A DNA stretch of 23,909 nt from a virus. A program made the translations under genes and the position numbers. Within the stretch, counting starts at the first letter, position 1. Every line of letters starts with the position of its first letter. Positions 4,283 to 19,081 of this stretch are shown here, one piece after another. The stretch is from positions 1-23,909 of IMG/VR virus record IMGVR_UViG_3300031746_005631; one strand, given 5' to 3'. A model generated the notes under the pieces. That model was not told the DNA's origin and ran no database searches. It worked only from the letters and a program-made list of their open reading frames with translations.

Positions 4283-4921
4283 TTAAATGGTCATACTAAA
4301 GATCACCGATGCCCCACGGTCAAAGTGCGGCAATCTAACTTCGTGTAGTTTATACAGATTGCAGTTTATATATTTTAGTAGCCTGTAATACTGATCCAGA
4401 TCTCTGTTTCTTTTCCTCTCCATTTTCAATCTTTCCATACATTTGAGAAACCGATGACGTACTTTCACCTGGGTCATTTTTTTCTTGTCACCTAAAAACT
4501 CGAATTTTTCATTTAAAAGCTGGGCAGTTTTACTTTGGCAAGTCGTTTCCATCATGAATTTTATTATTTCTATTTCAAGAATATTGAAATAGCTTTTTAA
4601 AGCTGTTTCAATTTCTTCTTTGGTTATTTTCGGCATTTTCCGGAGAAATTTAAGACGGGCTTTTGCTCGGGTAAGTCGACTTGATATAGCTCCTTGGGTA
4701 ACGCCAAACATTTTAGCTATATCTTTTTGGTTTTTTCGCTCTTTGTAGTAAAGATCTATCAGATCTCTTTCTCTTTCAGGAAGCTGACTTATTAAATCAT
4801 TGAAATCCTGCAAAGACACTGAAGGCCCGAGAATTTCATTGTATTTAATAGCTCTTTCATTGGAGAACTGTTTATCCATATCAGAATAATCTATTGACTT
4901 AAGAACAGGGCTAGTCCTCAT
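4283..4921 (-). CDS. sigma factor region 4-like transcription protein
   Basis: The product has 212 residues. Residues 45-95 match sigma70 region 4: LPERERDLIDLYYKER is followed by a helix-turn-helix at about 64-86 (QKDIAKMFGVTQGAISSRL). No recognisable region 2 is seen, so this is either a divergent phage sigma factor or a sigma-like DNA-binding regulator. The C-terminal 110 residues are basic and not recognised. The ATG at 4921 has AGGAG 8 nt upstream. The start overlaps the end of the NusG-like gene by 11 nt, suggesting translational coupling of two RNA-polymerase-directed factors. Likely job: redirecting host RNA polymerase to phage promoters. Confidence 0.7.
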   Translation of the reverse strand: MRTSPVLKSIDYSDMDKQFSNERAIKYNEILGPSVSLQDFNDLISQLPERERDLIDLYYKERKNQKDIAKMFGVTQGAISSRLTRAKARLKFLRKMPKITKEEIETALKSYFNILEIEIIKFMMETTCQSKTAQLLNEKFEFLGDKKKMTQVKVRHRFLKCMERLKMERKRNRDLDQYYRLLKYINCNLYKLHEVRLPHFDRGASVIFSMTI

Positions 4922-10614: not shown

Positions 10615-13600
10615 TTAACCACCGCAGCCACTATGCCCGCATTCACAGTCATAGCAGGTAGGAGATCTCCAAACTATGTTGGGGGAACCGCATTCTTTAC
10701 AGGTACCCTTTTTTTCTTTCAAATCTTCTTTTATTTTTATATGGCTGGCATAATCATACTTTAGTTCTTCTTCCATGACCCTAGCTATAGCATGAGGAGG
10801 AGAAGGTATTGATTCTGATGTACTGCAGTCACCTATTGTTGTAAAAACAGGCTTATCAGAAGGGATATTTTTAAGATTTCTGATAATGGATTCTGTTTTA
10901 ACACCGGCCCGTAAAGCCAGGCTAATCAGTTTGGCCACAGCTTCTGCCCATGAATCCTCTACACCGCTGGTCTGATGTACATTAGGTTTTTTACTTTCCC
11001 CTACGGTGGCAAAAATCTCCACCAGATCTCCATTGGTATTTTTATTAGCTATGACATACAGGTTATGATTCTGCATATGTACTCTGTACGTAGCTCCGAC
11101 AGTCCTGTGTCCACGTTTAATAGGAAGCATGCGACTGTCTGTTTCTTTTATGAGTGCTGGGGTAGGGTTCTGTTTTTTGTCTTTATTTACAAGAACTCCT
11201 TGTTTAGAACCATCCCTGAAGATGGTCACTCCCTTAACTCCATTTTCCATGGCCATAAGAAATGTCTTTTTTATTTCTTCTACGGTAGCTGTTTCAGGCA
11301 TGTTTACAGTTTTACTCGTACTGGAATCTATGTATTTACTGAATACTAGAAGCATTTTCACATGATCTTCAGGAGTTATTTCCTGAGCAGTTTTAAAATA
11401 AAAAGGTTTTTCTTTACCTGGATTCTGTTTTTTCCATTCTAGATAGCTTGGACAGCCATCCTCATAAGAACCAAGCCGGGTATTTCGTTGTATAGACAGA
11501 GCATACCAAGGTTCGCATCCTGTGGATAAATTCAGCATCGTCCCTATTGTTCCCGTAGGTGCCTGGCTCGTGATGCACCCATTGCGCAATCCGTATTTAC
11601 CTATGTCATCACGAATATCTTCTGGTAGGGTTTTTATAAACCCTGAATTTAAAAAAAGCTCTTTATTATATAAGGGGAAAGGTCCTTTTTCTTTTGATAG
11701 TTCTATTGAACTTTTATAAGCTTCATCCCGAAGCACCGTAAGAACTTTTTCTACTAAACAACGCCCGTCTTCAGTATCATAGCCTAATTCCATTTTTATA
11801 AGCATATCATGAAGACTTACAGTTCCTAATCCTGTACGACGTTCACTTTCAGCTGTACTCTTTATCTGTTGTAAAGGAAAACTACAATTATCAATGACAT
11901 TGTCAGAAAATCGGACTGCTGTATGAATAACCTGTTTAAATAAGTCAAAATTAAATTTTTTATCATCTACAAAAGAGCAAAGAGCTATACTTGACAAATT
12001 ACAGGAACTATAGGCTCCTAAAACCTGCTCACCACAGTTATGTACCTTTAAACCATTAACAAAACCCCAGTGCGTCTTAGGCTCAGTAAAATCAAAAACC
12101 TCTTCTTCTCCTATATATTCTATAGTAACAACTTTTGGGTCATGTCTATTTTTTGTCTTTCCCTCTAAAATATTTATTATCGTGGCTAAATTAGTAGCCT
12201 TGTATTTTTGAATAAACCCAATAAATTTGTTGAATGTGGCGATATCTTCTGAAGTGATATTTAAATCAAAGCTTTCTCGGCATTCATAGATACCGTTAAT
12301 AAATTCCACTTTTTTGGGTTTATTCGTGGTATAGTAGGATCTAATGCCTAAAGCCATAAAAATAATTTGTAGCTGTTCTACAAATTCCTTGCAGGTATTT
12401 TTAAAAGAAATGCGGTTATAATTCAGAAGGACAGAGCCATTAGCAGAAAAAACACCCTTCAGAAATAGCTGTAACTGTCGGGGAGGTAAAGATAAAATCT
12501 TTTGAGAAAGTTTTCTCTGAGGAATGGATAGTTCTGGAAAATCAAGATCCCGGCAAATATTAGAGAGTCTGTGACTTAGGGCATAAGCACATGGTTTTGA
12601 TTCCTGCTGCTCTATCTCATTTCCAAAGAGTTCTATAACATCTTTATCATCTTCACCAAGATAAACATACTTGAATCGACTTGAAGCTTTATGATAACCC
12701 CCATCACCAAAAATGAATCCAGCTTTAATCAGGTCATCATCCTCGATATTAACAGCGACACCTGTCCAATCTGAACCAGTGAGTCTCGTGGGGTTGAGAT
12801 TTAAGCATTCCTCAACGGCCTTTTCAGACCCGTCAATGAATATTTTATGATCCTTAGTACATTTAAGAACTATACCATTGCTTAATTTAACCTTATATAG
12901 AGGTTTTATCCCAGTTTTAAATGCCTTTGAATCCGCCCATTCTTGCCCATTCCATATGTGAAATTCCTGACCTTGAAGGTCCCCGATTTTTGCGAGGCCT
13001 TTTTCCTGAGTTAAAAGCAGGCTATCATACGCTAAACAAGGGTTAGTACCTATCAACGGATTAGCATACTCAAGATTATGCATTCGTCTGGCAGTTGACA
13101 TGTTTATGAGTCCAGGGCACCCATCAGCCCAAGCATTGTAACAGAGTCTATCCCAGACCTCTGACGCTTTTACTTTTCTTTTTGAAATTAATTCAAAAAT
13201 ATCCTGGGATCTTGGATAAGGGACTAGTTTTTTTACTTTCCAAAAAGCTGTTTTTTCACTATCTGCTACAACTTCAAATTCTTTTGTTATATAACCTTTA
13301 TCAGTTTTTTTCTTGAATTGTACTTTGTAGAGTTCCCATTCTTTATCTTTCCATTTAAATGTCCATTCAGAATTATTTTTTAAGGCCGTGAAAAATTCGT
13401 CAGAAACTCCAACGCTTATATTAAGCATCTGTAATTTATAATGATTTTCAAATTTGAAAGCTTCCCATTTATCCAGATCTTTCACGTCCATGAATTCCAG
13501 AAGGCGATCCCAGTTGTGGTCTGTTTTATAGCTGATAAATTCCCAAACATCGGGGTGCCATACTTCAAGAAGACCTAACCCCGCTGAACGTCGACTATTA

Positions 13601-15378
13601 TGGCTTATAAAGGAATTAGCTATATAAGAATGACTGTCATTAACTTCAAAATCCGCTGTATAGTCTTCTTCTTGATTAATTGTAGTTATTTTTGAAAAAA
13701 GAAAATTATTTATAGGTTGTAATGTATCTTTTGTTAAATCGTTTTTTAACAGCTTTGAGTAATTAGATAATGTAAGATGGCTGCTCCCTCTAATGTATGT
13801 TCTGATTCTTTTTATAAGAGCTTTAATTTCCTTGGTTTTGGCCATTTCATATAATTTTTCAAGAGACTTTTTCAGCCAATAATCAGGATGCGGAATAATA
13901 CTAGAATATTCTTTATTAGTGTCTGGTTTAAAACTTTTACAAAAATTAAAGCGAGAGCCCTCTGGAAAATTTATTAGCTCATTCCATTTCTCAAGTCCTA
14001 TAGAAGTCATGACTTTAACAGCATAAGCGTCTTTTCTTGAAAAACGACTTTCATGATTAAAAGTCTTAAATCTTTTGCAGGGGATACCCATTCCCATTAA
14101 AAGTATTTGAACTTCTTTAGCTAATTTAATAGATGAAGTATTTAATTGTGGATAACCATGACAAACATATCCATCAGCTTCAAAAAGGCCGGCTATAAAT
14201 GAGGCTACTATTTCTTCTGGACTAAGTCTTATTTTTATGGGAATTGAAGCTGTTATGCTTTTAGATTTCAACAGGCCGTTGTTATTTAAATATTTTTTTA
14301 TAATTTTATTAGTGATATAGTAAGTTTTACTCTCTTCTCCTGATTTCTGCATCTCAGTAATAGTCGGGTTGGATCCAAAAAGATTCTTGAAAATCCCATG
14401 TATCATCTCATTAAGATAGCTTTTAGAAGGTATTGACACACCAATCCTATAATCATTATCTAAAGATCCTGAAAATCCATTACCTACATAATAGCCAAGA
14501 AAAAAAGCAAAATCATTGTCGATTTTATCAGGTAGTTTATCAGGAACAAGACAATTATGGTGATCAGCTTTTATATCTGTATCAAGATATTGTAATTTCC
14601 CCTCATGCTGATTCATTTCAGATACTACGTAATCACCTACTTTTAGATTCTTAAGTTCTTTCCATTCGAACCCTTTTTCAGTGATTGTGTAGATTTTATG
14701 TGATAAGGTCCCTTTAATATTAAGGCCTATATCTGTAGCTATATTTAAGATATCAGAAAAACCATTTACATAATATTTTTTAGAAACGTTATCCCCATCT
14801 TTTGTTTTAACCACCAAATCTTGAGGGTACCATCCTTGTTCTTTTTCTTTAATGATCTCTTCGAAATATAATAGACCTTTTTTGGTATTTATTAAGGTAT
14901 CATAAGTCAAGCACCCCCCCTGTTCAATTACCTCTGATATAGTACTTGTCATGTGAATAAACCCCATGACTCCGCAGCTTCTTCCATTTACTCCTTTAAT
15001 GTAGGAGCCAGCTGGTCTCAATTGACTGAAATTCTGTCCCACTCCGCCACCAAATTTTTCTATAATAGCCATGTTTCGATTAGTATCCATGATGGACTCA
15101 AGACTATCGTCTTCATAAGGAATTACAAAACAGTTGAGGAGCTGGGAATAGTGGGTCCCGGAATGGGCGAGAATCCTACCAGCTGGGCAGAAATATCCTT
15201 TAGACATTATTTCGTAAAACTGTTCTTCCCAATATACCGGGTCTTTTTCTTTGGAGGCTATGTATTTGGCTACACGTCTGAAGGTTTCGTCTATATTATT
15301 CTCGAGTTTATTTCCGTTTTCATCTTTGAGTGCGTATCGATCTTCCCATATGATTTGTCCGAGTTTCGTAAGTTGCAT
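10615..15378 (-). CDS. nrdJ: class II (cobalamin-dependent) ribonucleotide reductase precursor with two inteins
   Basis: The 1,587-residue precursor has reductase blocks split by two inteins; splicing would leave about 814 residues, the usual size for NrdJ with a C-terminal zinc finger. Visible reductase landmarks are LNCFV (first redox Cys), FGGGVGQNFSQLRPAG, QGG-SRRSAGLGLLEVWHPD, NP-CGEQ (radical-bearing Cys and neighbouring Glu), APTGTIGTMLNLSTGCEPW, and the CKECG...CYDCECG tail. No separate radical-generating small subunit gene is seen, which fits class II. It makes deoxyribonucleotides for phage replication. The ATG at 15378 starts at MQLTKLGQII with AAGG just upstream; an ATG at 15393 (five residues longer) has its GGA abutting the start. 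Thioredoxin follows 39 nt downstream. Both inteins show intact splicing ends, so an active enzyme is expected. Confidence 0.93.
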   Translation of the reverse strand: MQLTKLGQIIWEDRYALKDENGNKLENNIDETFRRVAKYIASKEKDPVYWEEQFYEIMSKGYFCPAGRILAHSGTHYSQLLNCFVIPYEDDSLESIMDTNRNMAIIEKFGGGVGQNFSQLRPAGSYIKGVNGRSCGVMGFIHMTSTISEVIEQGGCLTYDTLINTKKGLLYFEEIIKEKEQGWYPQDLVVKTKDGDNVSKKYYVNGFSDILNIATDIGLNIKGTLSHKIYTITEKGFEWKELKNLKVGDYVVSEMNQHEGKLQYLDTDIKADHHNCLVPDKLPDKIDNDFAFFLGYYVGNGFSGSLDNDYRIGVSIPSKSYLNEMIHGIFKNLFGSNPTITEMQKSGEESKTYYITNKIIKKYLNNNGLLKSKSITASIPIKIRLSPEEIVASFIAGLFEADGYVCHGYPQLNTSSIKLAKEVQILLMGMGIPCKRFKTFNHESRFSRKDAYAVKVMTSIGLEKWNELINFPEGSRFNFCKSFKPDTNKEYSSIIPHPDYWLKKSLEKLYEMAKTKEIKALIKRIRTYIRGSSHLTLSNYSKLLKNDLTKDTLQPINNFLFSKITTINQEEDYTADFEVNDSHSYIANSFISHNSRRSAGLGLLEVWHPDVWEFISYKTDHNWDRLLEFMDVKDLDKWEAFKFENHYKLQMLNISVGVSDEFFTALKNNSEWTFKWKDKEWELYKVQFKKKTDKGYITKEFEVVADSEKTAFWKVKKLVPYPRSQDIFELISKRKVKASEVWDRLCYNAWADGCPGLINMSTARRMHNLEYANPLIGTNPCLAYDSLLLTQEKGLAKIGDLQGQEFHIWNGQEWADSKAFKTGIKPLYKVKLSNGIVLKCTKDHKIFIDGSEKAVEECLNLNPTRLTGSDWTGVAVNIEDDDLIKAGFIFGDGGYHKASSRFKYVYLGEDDKDVIELFGNEIEQQESKPCAYALSHRLSNICRDLDFPELSIPQRKLSQKILSLPPRQLQLFLKGVFSANGSVLLNYNRISFKNTCKEFVEQLQIIFMALGIRSYYTTNKPKKVEFINGIYECRESFDLNITSEDIATFNKFIGFIQKYKATNLATIINILEGKTKNRHDPKVVTIEYIGEEEVFDFTEPKTHWGFVNGLKVHNCGEQVLGAYSSCNLSSIALCSFVDDKKFNFDLFKQVIHTAVRFSDNVIDNCSFPLQQIKSTAESERRTGLGTVSLHDMLIKMELGYDTEDGRCLVEKVLTVLRDEAYKSSIELSKEKGPFPLYNKELFLNSGFIKTLPEDIRDDIGKYGLRNGCITSQAPTGTIGTMLNLSTGCEPWYALSIQRNTRLGSYEDGCPSYLEWKKQNPGKEKPFYFKTAQEITPEDHVKMLLVFSKYIDSSTSKTVNMPETATVEEIKKTFLMAMENGVKGVTIFRDGSKQGVLVNKDKKQNPTPALIKETDSRMLPIKRGHRTVGATYRVHMQNHNLYVIANKNTNGDLVEIFATVGESKKPNVHQTSGVEDSWAEAVAKLISLALRAGVKTESIIRNLKNIPSDKPVFTTIGDCSTSESIPSPPHAIARVMEEELKYDYASHIKIKEDLKEKKGTCKECGSPNIVWRSPTCYDCECGHSGCGG
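12037..13038 (-). other. intein 2 of NrdJ, inserted at the catalytic Cys (334 aa)
   Basis: The intein starts with Cys (CLAYDSLLL) directly after GTNP and ends GLKVHN directly before CGEQ, so all splicing residues are present: Cys1, TKDH in block B, the His-Asn end and a Cys as the next residue. It carries a LAGLIDADG endonuclease core. The first motif is AGFIFGDGGY, with its aspartate; the second reads FLKGVFSANGS, with Asn (codon AAT) where the catalytic Asp belongs. Insertion within NP-CGE keeps the reductase dead until splicing. The endonuclease is predicted to be inactive or a nickase. Confidence 0.92.
13597..14913 (-). other. intein 1 of NrdJ (439 aa)
   Basis: The intein starts at CLTYDTLIN after VIEQGG and ends ANSFISHN before SRRSAGLG. 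Splicing residues are Cys1, TLSH in block B, DFEVNDSHSY in block F, and the terminal His-Asn followed by Ser. A LAGLIDADG endonuclease domain is present. Its second motif, IAGLFEADGY, is intact, while the first reads FLGYYVGNGF, with Asn (AAT) in place of Asp. The extra length over intein 2 lies mostly in the region after the second motif, perhaps an added DNA-recognition segment. Confidence 0.92.
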
Positions 15379-15473
15379 GGTCCTTCTTTCCATTCCTATA
15401 TGTATGCTATTTAATATTTACTAATGAAAATTCCCTGTATTAAAAGAAAATTATGACAAATAATTTCCCTATA

Positions 15474-16430: not shown

Positions 16431-17372
16431 TTATGCGTTTAATAAGGGATAGGTTTTAATGAGTGCATTTTTAAGAGCCATATTCAGATTGATTCCGTAC
16501 ATGGAATATTTTTTTACCTGACTCAATGTGTTGACAGACCATAGTAGGGCTCTGTCATTACAGTTTTTTGCCAGGGCTACCAATTTATCCTCCATGTCTT
16601 TATTTACAATATTGGGGTAGTTGTTTTTCAGCATTAAAAGATCCGTGCTAATTATAATCAGCATATCTATATACAATGATAAGTCTTCTCGATCGATCTG
16701 ATCGGTCTCTTCAAGAACATCGATAAGTTCTCTTTTTTTTATGTCACTGAAAAATTCAAAAGCTTTTGTACGGTATTTTAAACACAGTCCAGCATTACTT
16801 AAAATATCAATAGGCAGCTCAGCTGCAAGATTCCCCAGTATCGCTGATTTGTTTTTATCATAGCCCAGATTTTTATGAATGATTTGAGCATACTGTTCTT
16901 TATTGAGCCGGTTGAACTCGTATTTTTCACACCGAGACACTATCGTGACTGGAAGCTGGCTCAGGTTATCGGTAATCAGGAAAAAGATTCCTGTCTTAGA
17001 TCCCTCAAGAAGATTCAGCATTCTGTTGATAGACCCCATGGTCATTTTATCGGCATTATTGGCTATGACTGCTTTTCGGTCGGATAACAGAGGGGCTGTG
17101 AGCATGAACTCAAGTATGCTATCAACATCAGACACCTTTATTCTATTAAAGGTACCGATACACAAAATGTCCGGGTGTTTGTCAGATAAAATCAAAGAGC
17201 ATGATTGGCATTTGCAGGAGTCGTCTCCACCACAAAAACTTTTTCTTATCAGATCCAGGGCAATTTTTTTCTTACCCACACAGGACGGTCCATGAAATAA
17301 AAATACTCCATCAGGATTATTTTTTAATCTCAGAGACAGCGATATCCTTGTCTGTTCATGACCAATAATCAC
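16431..17372 (-). CDS. holB: DNA polymerase III delta-prime-like clamp-loader subunit
   Basis: The 313-residue product opens with GHEQTRISLSLRLKN and a modified P-loop GPSCVGKKK, in which the usual Thr/Ser after GK is Lys, as in non-ATPase delta-prime proteins. A Cys-rich zinc segment follows (CKCQSCSLI). NADKMTMGSINRMLNLLEG matches the delta-prime equivalent of the Walker B region, and the SRC arginine finger is intact (VSRCEKYEF). It would act as the stator of the clamp loader with dnaX and holA. The start is GTG at 17372 with GAGG 8 nt upstream. It is the first gene of the leftward operon, facing the divergent control region. Confidence 0.88.
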   Translation of the reverse strand: MIIGHEQTRISLSLRLKNNPDGVFLFHGPSCVGKKKIALDLIRKSFCGGDDSCKCQSCSLILSDKHPDILCIGTFNRIKVSDVDSILEFMLTAPLLSDRKAVIANNADKMTMGSINRMLNLLEGSKTGIFFLITDNLSQLPVTIVSRCEKYEFNRLNKEQYAQIIHKNLGYDKNKSAILGNLAAELPIDILSNAGLCLKYRTKAFEFFSDIKKRELIDVLEETDQIDREDLSLYIDMLIIISTDLLMLKNNYPNIVNKDMEDKLVALAKNCNDRALLWSVNTLSQVKKYSMYGINLNMALKNALIKTYPLLNA

Positions 17373-17453: not shown

Positions 17454-17501
17454 CTATTACCTATACTATTACTGATATCATTTTCTGTTTTATTTCTGTT
17501 A
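17454..17501. repeat. 48-bp direct repeat, copy 1
   Basis: This copy is identical over 48 bp to 18569-18616. Inside it are CTATTAC twice (17454 and 17466, 12 bp apart) and TTTCTGTT twice (17482 and 17493, 11 bp apart), so short motifs recur about once per helical turn, as in iteron-type protein-binding sites. It lies upstream of the holB operon on the leftward strand. Confidence 0.9.
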
Positions 17502-17534
17502 TTAATAGTTTTTATGATATGTGTATTGCCTTAT

Positions 17535-17905
17535 TCACACACCTTTTAGTGATCCGCCATCTGCGATAGGGACGCTTACCGCAGCACGAGCATGCTCCAT
17601 TTCGCCTATCCTGTGCGGGATAGGGCAGGTATCCGTTAATACTGCTAAATCATTATAGGGTACTCTCAGAATCGGCTTGCTTTTTCAGGCACTTGTGTAC
17701 CACCACTAGCCCCATGGAAGCAGGTTTATAACGTTCGGCAGCCTGCATGAGATCACGACATCTCTGACCATCTGGACCGTGTAGCTGTCTATTCATATAC
17801 GGATTACCTGCGTCTACAGAAATATGAAGAGCAATCGGCACTCCCCGTATACTTTAGCCCTGATATCCTCCCTAAAATGGCTTTGACCAGAACCTTCCGG
17901 TCTTA
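17535..17905 (-). pseudogene. GC-rich island: decayed frameshifted gene or structured RNA
   Basis: Over about 360 nt the GC content is near 49% (single 60-nt lines reach 53-55%), against about 35% around it. On the leftward strand three open stretches in different frames follow each other. The first contains REDIRAKVYG. The second starts near 17841 and contains HGPDGQRCRDLMQAAERY. The third contains TDTCPIPHRIGEMEHARA and ends at 17535. One extra base near a GGGG run (about 17845) and one fewer in an AAAAA run (about 17682) would join them, as expected for a decayed gene or homopolymer sequencing errors. Against this, several hairpins (CCTATCC/GGATAGG, GAGAT/ATCTC, and CCGTGTA/TATACGG with a G-U on the plus strand) would suit a non-coding RNA. 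I recognise no family either way. Confidence 0.35.
17653..17841 (-). CDS. possible short ORF inside the GC-rich island (62 aa)
   Basis: The frame starts at a GTG (17841) whose only nearby ribosome-site-like sequence (GGGGA) abuts the start. The product runs MPIALHISVDAGNPYMNRQL and continues with a helix and a hydrophobic strand (MGLVVVHKCL). Its composition is protein-like. It ends in the frame change described for the island, so it may be the middle part of a broken gene and not a working one. Confidence 0.25.
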   Translation of the reverse strand: MPIALHISVDAGNPYMNRQLHGPDGQRCRDLMQAAERYKPASMGLVVVHKCLKKQADSESTL

Positions 17906-17910
17906 TAACC

Positions 17911-18291
17911 CTACCTTCCTAGTCTGTTTACGTAATCAGTCCAGTTAGAGGTTAGATGATCATCAAATGGATCCTCTGTTTTTTTCAGAAGATTCATTTC
18001 TGTTGCATAAAGATTAAACCATATAACAAGATCAACTTTATTGAATAGTTCTTTAGGAACACAATCAATAGGATTGATGTTTATCATTTTCCTAGCATAA
18101 TACGTTATTATAGCTCTGTCATACTGATTGAAGAAGTCCCCTATATAGGCACTAATAGAGTCTGAGGACATTAAAGAGTGCATTTCTCCAACCATATAGC
18201 TCTTCCCTACTATTCCTCTGATATATCGGACAGAGGCTCCCAGGGAGAGTTTGTCAGGACTTGCTATGACTATGTAATTAGGTAGTTTCAT
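17911..18291 (-). CDS. hypothetical protein (126 aa) in the divergent region
   Basis: Unrecognised. The product starts MKLPNYIVIASPDKLSLGAS and has alternating hydrophobic strands and helices (RAIITYYARKM, KVDLVIWFNLYATEMNLL) consistent with a small alpha/beta fold, with no membrane segment. There is no clear ribosome site before the ATG at 18291; instead a TATAAAT lies about 10 nt upstream, so a very short leader is possible. It is flanked by the two 48-bp repeats and stands apart from the operons on either side, so a role tied to the control region (initiator, regulator or moron-like insert) is conceivable but unproved. Confidence 0.6.
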   Translation of the reverse strand: MKLPNYIVIASPDKLSLGASVRYIRGIVGKSYMVGEMHSLMSSDSISAYIGDFFNQYDRAIITYYARKMININPIDCVPKELFNKVDLVIWFNLYATEMNLLKKTEDPFDDHLTSNWTDYVNRLGR

Positions 18292-18345
18292 ATCTATTTA
18301 TAATATAGTTTTCTGTCCATTTTTTTAAACTTTATTTATCAGTTG

Positions 18346-18377
18346 TTTCCTGTTATTTCATATACAGTTACAGGAAA
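18346..18377. repeat. inverted repeat TTTCCTGT / ACAGGAAA
   Basis: Perfect 8-bp arms are separated by 16 nt, about 55 nt upstream of the 126-residue gene on the leftward strand. The arms resemble the TTTCTGTT element of the 48-bp repeat, so the same protein may bind both. Confidence 0.5.
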
Positions 18378-18496
18378 TCGTTTTTTTAGTTAGATTTTTC
18401 TTCTGTTTTTCATGCCTATTTCTGATTCTTTTTTCAGTCTGATGGTTGTTACATATATTATATGACTCATTCTTCTTCTTCTGATTTCTTTTATTA

Positions 18497-18557
18497 TACT
18501 CAGTACTCAGTACTCAGTACTCAGTACTCAGTACTCAGTACTCAGTACTCAGTACTC
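18497..18557. repeat. tandem array of the 7-mer TACTCAG, eight full copies plus a partial
   Basis: The unit TACTCAG is repeated without error from 18497 to 18552, followed by TACTC. Each junction creates the palindrome AGTACT, and three units span 21 bp, or two helical turns. The array ends 11 nt before copy 2 of the 48-bp repeat and is close to an A/T-only tract. Iterons for an initiator, a regulator array, or simple slippage expansion are all possible. Confidence 0.9.
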
Positions 18558-18568
18558 CCGTCGTCTTC

Positions 18569-18616
18569 CTATTACCTATACTATTACTGATATCATTTTC
18601 TGTTTTATTTCTGTTA
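18569..18616. repeat. 48-bp direct repeat, copy 2
   Basis: Perfect match to 17454-17501 in the same orientation; identity ends at both edges (C versus T before, G versus T after). It separates the 7-bp array from the dyad and A/T tract that precede the rightward operon. Confidence 0.9.
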
Positions 18617-18618
18617 GA

Positions 18619-18636
18619 CATGGTCTGAAGACCATG
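18619..18636. promoter_or_regulatory. 18-bp perfect dyad, operator-like
   Basis: CATGGTCTGAAGACCATG is an 8-bp perfect inverted repeat around a GA centre, directly after the 48-bp repeat and 145 nt upstream of the first rightward gene. Size and symmetry suit a dimeric helix-turn-helix repressor or an initiator protein. Confidence 0.45.
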
Positions 18637-18677: not shown

Positions 18678-18756
18678 TTGACAGTCTTAATGAGAAATAA
18701 GACTGGGATTAAAAGATTAACTTTAAAAAATGGACTTGAAAACAATATCATATAAA
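18678..18756 (+). promoter_or_regulatory. leader region of the rightward operon: TTGACA, hairpin and TATAAA box
   Basis: TTGACA (18678-18683) overlaps a perfect 8-bp hairpin CAGTCTTA/TAAGACTG with an 8-nt loop (18682-18705). A TATAAA box lies at 18751-18756, 26 nt before the ATG. The TTGACA has no -10 at 16-18 nt and the TATAAA has no -35, so this is not a standard promoter. The hairpin over the -35-like box would suit repression, or the phage sigma-like factor may recognise a different pattern. Confidence 0.3.
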
Positions 18757-18781
18757 TAGAACACAAACAAAGGACTGAAAA

Positions 18782-19081
18782 ATGGATGATAAGACTGGGG
18801 ATGATGAATTCAAAGAATTTCTTGAAAAGGGACAGACTAATAATCAATTACCTATTCTGGTGTTTATTAAGAGTAAATCAGAGTATGTCCTTAAAAGCTG
18901 TGATATGCTGATTAAATCATGTCAGATAAAAGACATTGATGAAGACATAAAGAAGAAACTGAAAGAGACATTGATAAAGATGCTGGATCAGGTGCTGCAG
19001 ACATCTTTTCAGTATGACTATTCAGTAATGGATATGGAAGAAGGAGATGATGAGGAAGATGATGAGGGGGATGATTTATGA
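18782..19081 (+). CDS. acidic hypothetical protein (99 aa)
   Basis: First gene of the rightward operon. Residues 22-75 are helical with a hydrophobic strand (LPILVFIKS), and the last 18 residues are almost all Asp/Glu (EEGDDEEDDEGDDL). Such tails mimic DNA charge or bind basic partners. The ATG at 18782 has AAAGGA 7 nt upstream, and the stop overlaps the next start as ATGA, so it is coupled to the transglycosylase gene. Family unknown. Confidence 0.7.
   Translation: MDDKTGDDEFKEFLEKGQTNNQLPILVFIKSKSEYVLKSCDMLIKSCQIKDIDEDIKKKLKETLIKMLDQVLQTSFQYDYSVMDMEEGDDEEDDEGDDL

Follow-up and report, generated by a model that had tools for sequence, protein, structure and literature searches.

The DNA analysed here, referred to below as the window, is a 23,909-bp virus record from IMG/VR (IMGVR_UViG_3300031746_005631), and it was examined over its whole length. 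Our subject is a pair of direct repeats at a strand switch in this record, together with the gene and the RNA region that they enclose. The left repeat (L, 17454-17501) and the right repeat (R, 18569-18616), both read here on the minus strand, have the same orientation, are identical at 48 of 48 positions and lie 1115 bp apart from start to start, exactly as the original prediction had it. The motifs reported inside the repeats are also present, with CTATTAC at 17454 and 17466 and TTTCTGTT at 17482 and 17493, and likewise in the second copy. Moreover, the two copies do flank the one conserved gene that the gap contains (g126; 17911-18291, minus strand) and a GC-rich segment at approximately 17500-17900. 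An exact pair of 48-mers is unexpected by chance given the base composition, and it is the sole direct pair in the record with a length of at least 32 nt, an identity of at least 87% and a spacing of 300-2000 bp. The repeats end abruptly, as judged by the in-register flanks, which are only 35-45% identical, and a search of IMG/VR with the exact 48-mer gave no match.

Beyond what had been described for the pair, a structured RNA region ends at one copy and a hairpin (CATGGTC-TGAA-GACCATG, 18619-18636) abuts the other. The strand switch thus carries, in this order, the hairpin with R, the g126 gene, the RNA region and L. To the left of this module, the first leftward replication gene encodes a HolB-like clamp-loader subunit (16431-17372, minus strand; Pfam PF13177, 1.8e-24), and further leftward genes encode a HolA-like clamp-loader subunit, a ribonucleotide reductase with apparent inteins, DnaX and a primase of the DnaG type. 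The rightward genes are a small gene, a transglycosylase gene, RecD and a deaminase-like gene.

The module was compared across eight phage genomes, all metagenomic, namely the window and seven distant syntenic relatives located on contigs of 42-470 kb. Four of these (L011, L012, L037 and L076) were recovered with a RecD alignment, L118 with a subgroup alignment, and L158 and L159 with the diagnostic RecD motif ITPRN.GPLSV. Single-sequence scans with delta', RecD and ribonucleotide reductase found no close relatives, and a DNA-level search of INPHARED with the window returned short chance-like matches only. L158 is the nearest relative of the window (58% for RecD and 48% for HolB) and lies on a contig of 469,617 bp. 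All seven relatives have the HolB/RecD strand switch with a g126 homologue (about 125 aa), and the order of the module is common to them.

A direct pair was found in all eight phages, with R upstream of g126 (53-277 nt ahead of it) and L 263-416 nt beyond the g126 stop codon. Each phage has its own version: 48 nt with 100% identity between R and L in the window, 64 nt and 100% in L158, 66 nt and 97% in L118, 53 nt and 92% in L012, 38 nt and 95% in L037, 38 nt and 89% in L076, 46 nt and 85% in L011, and 32 nt and 97% in L159. The pairs thus span 32-66 nt with 85-100% identity within a phage and copies 785-1115 bp apart, and the in-register flanks beyond them are 5-45% identical. Between phages the repeats are mostly without significant similarity, apart from some likeness between L159 and L037 and between L158 and L012, and they contain no short core common to all. 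Read on the g126 strand, they consist of 44-61% A and 58-86% purine. Each contig has two copies, even at a length of 470 kb, although G001 and the G007 contig contain a few weaker, partial matches besides, near the 35% mismatch limit. Five of the eight contigs have no other direct repeat comparable to the pair. In the window, L011, L012, L076 and L159, some 50-80 nt separate L from holB downstream of it. L118 and L158 have other open reading frames (ORFs) between L and holB, and even there the spacing of L from the g126 gene and the RNA is maintained.

A hairpin contacts the 5' edge of R in 8/8 phages, while the matching edge of L has none. It should be noted that the R-edge hairpins are not all significant when taken singly, and that three phages have a longer hairpin farther away with a higher score. 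Next to R, the window also has an array of 8.7 copies of the heptamer TACTCAG (18497-18557), which would form a strong hairpin when single-stranded; this type of array was not seen in the corresponding gaps of the relatives. Short direct repeats clustered in the manner of iterons were not found, there being two copies 785-1115 bp apart and a heptamer array in the window only.

The g126 gene encodes a protein of 126 aa that belongs to a conserved, unnamed family with homologues in all seven relatives. An AlphaFold2 model of the L118 homologue has an alpha/beta fold with a predicted local distance difference test score of 92.6. The model loosely resembles RecA/KaiC ATPases (best Z 8.3, Foldseek E 0.016), a likeness which may reflect no more than a common arrangement. 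The Walker A motif GxxxxGK[ST] occurs in none of the eight proteins, an SPDK-like loop standing in its place. No sequence match to g126 was obtained in PHROGs, Pfam or PDB, and comparison with a viral fold library gave nothing below 1e-3. The g126 proteins of the window and L076 had no match among INPHARED proteins, and an alignment search of genome contigs yielded no confirmed hit. The possibility that g126 is the N-terminal domain of HolA, the clamp-loader delta subunit, was considered and found unsupported, with an hhalign probability of 0.1% against HolA of the same phages.

The stretch from g126 to L has a higher G+C content than its surroundings in the AT-rich phages. Between the window and L158 this region is conserved at the sequence level (blastn E 2.5e-16), and their consensus fold on the g126 strand has a z of -4.35, none of 100 column shuffles being as stable. 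Two-sided changes occur in 22 of the 61 pairs of this fold. In the 3' half they occur in 9 of 30 pairs with no broken pairs, although the structure was derived from the same two sequences. The structured core would extend over 17550-17889 (minus strand), with a closing helix near both ends, and the best covarying hairpin has 7 bp, four of them changed on both sides (17605-17624, minus strand). Among the other phages, conserved sequence islands were seen for L076/L118, L011/L159 and L037/L159. The region had no Rfam match at gathering thresholds and no credible one at permissive thresholds, and a search for tRNA and tmRNA gave nothing credible.

The position of R relative to nucleotide skew points indirectly to an origin of replication. 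In the window, the cumulative GC, AT and purine skews have their minima at 18600, 18615 and 18615, respectively, that is, within R. The GC-skew minimum also falls at or near R in the 258.6-kb contig of G004 (94,652, with R at 94,661-94,698), in the 182.7-kb contig of G003 (131,801, with R at 131,757-131,794), in L159 on G007 contig 107 (27,199 against 27,273) and in G002 (15,526 against 15,715). In G003, G001 and the L159 contig, the skew at third codon positions of same-strand genes shifts across R as expected. About 30% of huge phages have been reported to show a skew indicative of bidirectional replication (PMC7162821). Because the module is conserved at the same strand switch and most contigs have a skew minimum at R or close to it, the hairpin with R, g126, the RNA region and L very probably form a conserved replication-origin cassette of a lineage of large phages. 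The link to initiation proposed in the original prediction gains support from the skew minima, the conserved position and the adjoining replication genes. The strong selection that it invoked for the identity of the repeats is likewise supported by the matched pair within each of the eight phages, while its suggestion that the repeats are the ends of an inserted unit found no support.

How the two copies would act is a separate question. The pattern suggests a function that requires matched copies, and it would hardly be expected of a general promoter, of a mobile unit or of the scar of a duplication. We favour a joint reading, with a probability of roughly 0.4, in which the cassette is the replication origin of the lineage and the tail of the RNA, L, pairs with R to open or prime it. 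A leftward transcript would end in L, as a poorly structured, A-rich and mostly purine tail. This tail might then form a hybrid, next to the hairpin, with the strand of R complementary to it, with help from the g126 protein, and the resulting R-loop could open the duplex, prime leading-strand synthesis towards holB, or both. Since recognition would rest on base pairing, the two copies would have to match each other, although no particular sequence would be required of them. Pairing by an RNA tail is preferred because it explains both the long match within each phage without a fixed sequence and the arrangement in which L closes the structured RNA while R lies with the hairpin at the strand switch. 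A more far-reaching proposal, which we regard as rather unlikely, is that g126 and the structured RNA assemble into a particle. Its variable 3' tail would find the matching site next to the hairpin, at a distance of about 1 kb, and initiate replication at that site.

Several observations weigh against the origin and its RNA-tail pairing. A skew minimum at divergent genes is partly a matter of gene direction, and skew alone is no proof of an origin. The offset between skew minimum and R is larger in G001 and G005, and in the 469.6-kb contig G006 it is the AT-skew minimum alone that is near R (198,821 against 199,086), the GC minimum being located at another position; the third-position skew of this contig shifts at R for minus-strand genes but not for plus-strand genes. 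With regard to the RNA, the opposite strand also scores (z -3.43 compared to -4.35), and covariation is clear for window/L158 alone, being weaker for L159/L011 and L159/L012 (z about -2.9) and slight or absent for other pairs. A covariance model built on the 3' half of the window and L158 sequences misses the RNA of the other six phages and so does not connect the RNAs of the two sub-lineages, and a multi-sequence alignment of the six-member sub-lineage gave no consensus fold. The L tail is less structured than the RNA core in 8/8 phages, but not below the level of shuffled tails. Finally, R and L differ by 15% in L011, and pairing would therefore not be exact in every phage.

Two other functions would also call for a pair of related sites. 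A replication initiator, for which g126 itself is a candidate, might bind both R and L, loop the origin and co-evolve with its sites, which would keep them matched within a phage; two sites at a putative origin, a hairpin at one of them and a dedicated small protein encoded in between are what such an arrangement would look like. However, near-identity over 32-66 nt is long for a protein site, the repeats share no internal core across the phages, and an initiator does not require a structured RNA that ends at L, so that we hold this explanation to be rather unlikely. Alternatively, R and L could represent the same leader or operator, placed in front of two leftward transcription units, g126 and the holB operon, and recognised by a shared regulator on RNA or DNA, as might be expected from R preceding g126 by 53-277 nt and from the short distance between L and holB in several phages. 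This we consider unlikely, as L118 and L158 have ORFs between L and holB, with L staying with the RNA, and as only two copies are present in contigs of up to 470 kb.

Explanations that do not involve a matched function fare far worse. The perfect identity and the sharp ends of the window copies would suit a 1.1-kb unit that was inserted or duplicated and left them as its scar, but the unit occupies the same place in eight divergent phages whose repeats differ, none of the relatives found has an empty site with only one repeat, and profile searches recognised no transposase or recombinase gene, which makes such a scar highly improbable. We give equally little credence to a general phage promoter element that occurs twice by chance. 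Parts of the repeat do resemble promoter-like sites at 18294-18317 (minus strand), 18416-18439 (minus strand) and 18734-18759 (plus strand), but the contigs contain no further good copies, and the repeat of a phage with 62% GC has no evident -10-like motif. Many dispersed promoter copies, which the original prediction had named as evidence against it, were looked for and not seen, and in view of this copy number the 48-mer is no longer taken for a member of a promoter-site family. An assembly error is very unlikely, since the pair recurs in independent assemblies.

Other features of these phages were noted. The rightward operon starts with a gene at 18782-19081 (plus strand) that has a homologue in L158, preceded by a putative promoter-like site, ACTTGAAAAC...TATAAATAG (18734-18759, plus strand). 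This site and the divergent one at 18294-18317 (minus strand) have GGAC..GAAAAC...TATAAATAG in common and resemble T4 late promoters; the window also encodes a phage sigma-like factor (4283-4921). The ribonucleotide reductase of the window (10615-15393, minus strand; 1592 aa) is apparently split by two inteins, and RecD of L076 (6998-10816, 1272 aa) has two apparent inteins. A gene for a Tpt1/KptA-like RNA 2'-phosphotransferase (Pfam 4e-6 for L118) lies in the rightward operon beside the proposed origin in L118 (6368-7261), L076 (5948-6652), L012 (6076-6705), L011 (6101-6751) and L037 (6017-6655); at its position the window has the transglycosylase gene instead, and L158 a gene resembling that of an NAD-dependent DNA ligase. 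The L158 contig (IMGVR_UViG_3300028840_006907) has an array of short stem-loops, TATTCCCCG...CGGGGCTG, at approximately 339,480-340,260 (locus L176), which looks like clustered regularly interspaced short palindromic repeats (CRISPR), yet its loops vary. The 469.6-kb contig is probably a complete circle because of a 58-bp terminal overlap. L159 (WJJK01000172.1) was deposited in a Candidatus Altiarchaeales metagenome-assembled genome and is probably a misbinned phage contig.

Parts of the proposed module have counterparts in known systems. RNA II of plasmid ColE1 forms its hybrid in cis on the same copy, with no second matching copy, no hairpin-repeat pair and no intervening protein gene. The omega RNAs of TnpB and IscB and the bridge RNA of IS110 are structured RNAs that hold, or are followed by, a target-matching segment; unlike these systems, the module has no recognised nuclease or recombinase gene, a fixed genome position and a single target. 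At T4 origins an annealed RNA primes leading-strand synthesis through an R-loop, and the module, as a putative phage origin with an AT-rich region beside an RNA, resembles T4 oriF and oriG (PMC3016281). In T4, however, the R-loop arises at the site of RNA synthesis and shows no sequence specificity, whereas in the module the proposed RNA tail and its putative target are two distinct copies that match each other over a distance of 0.8-1.1 kb, accompanied by a hairpin and a dedicated gene. Extrachromosomal prophages of the mycobacteriophages Alma, LadyBird and RedRock have an RNA-dependent origin, and here too a phage noncoding RNA region is involved, theirs being needed for replication (PMC7157519). 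These origins differ in maintaining temperate prophages beside parABS, and the portion of that report drawn on here mentions neither paired repeats nor g126; the same portion describes ColE1 RNA II as a structured RNA preprimer acting at a plasmid origin, a role comparable to that proposed for the RNA of the module (PMC7157519). The new element would be the pairing between two separate copies. A search of the open-access literature found no earlier description of the module.

How huge phages choose and fire their origins is largely unknown, and the module offers a compact, conserved and testable origin cassette. If the match between the copies does reflect recognition, the address of the origin would be set by RNA-DNA pairing in trans rather than by a protein site of fixed sequence. 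Such pairing would account for copies that can drift freely between lineages and yet remain matched within each of them. Should the origin indeed be RNA-guided, a phage lineage could change its origin address by altering the tail and its target jointly.
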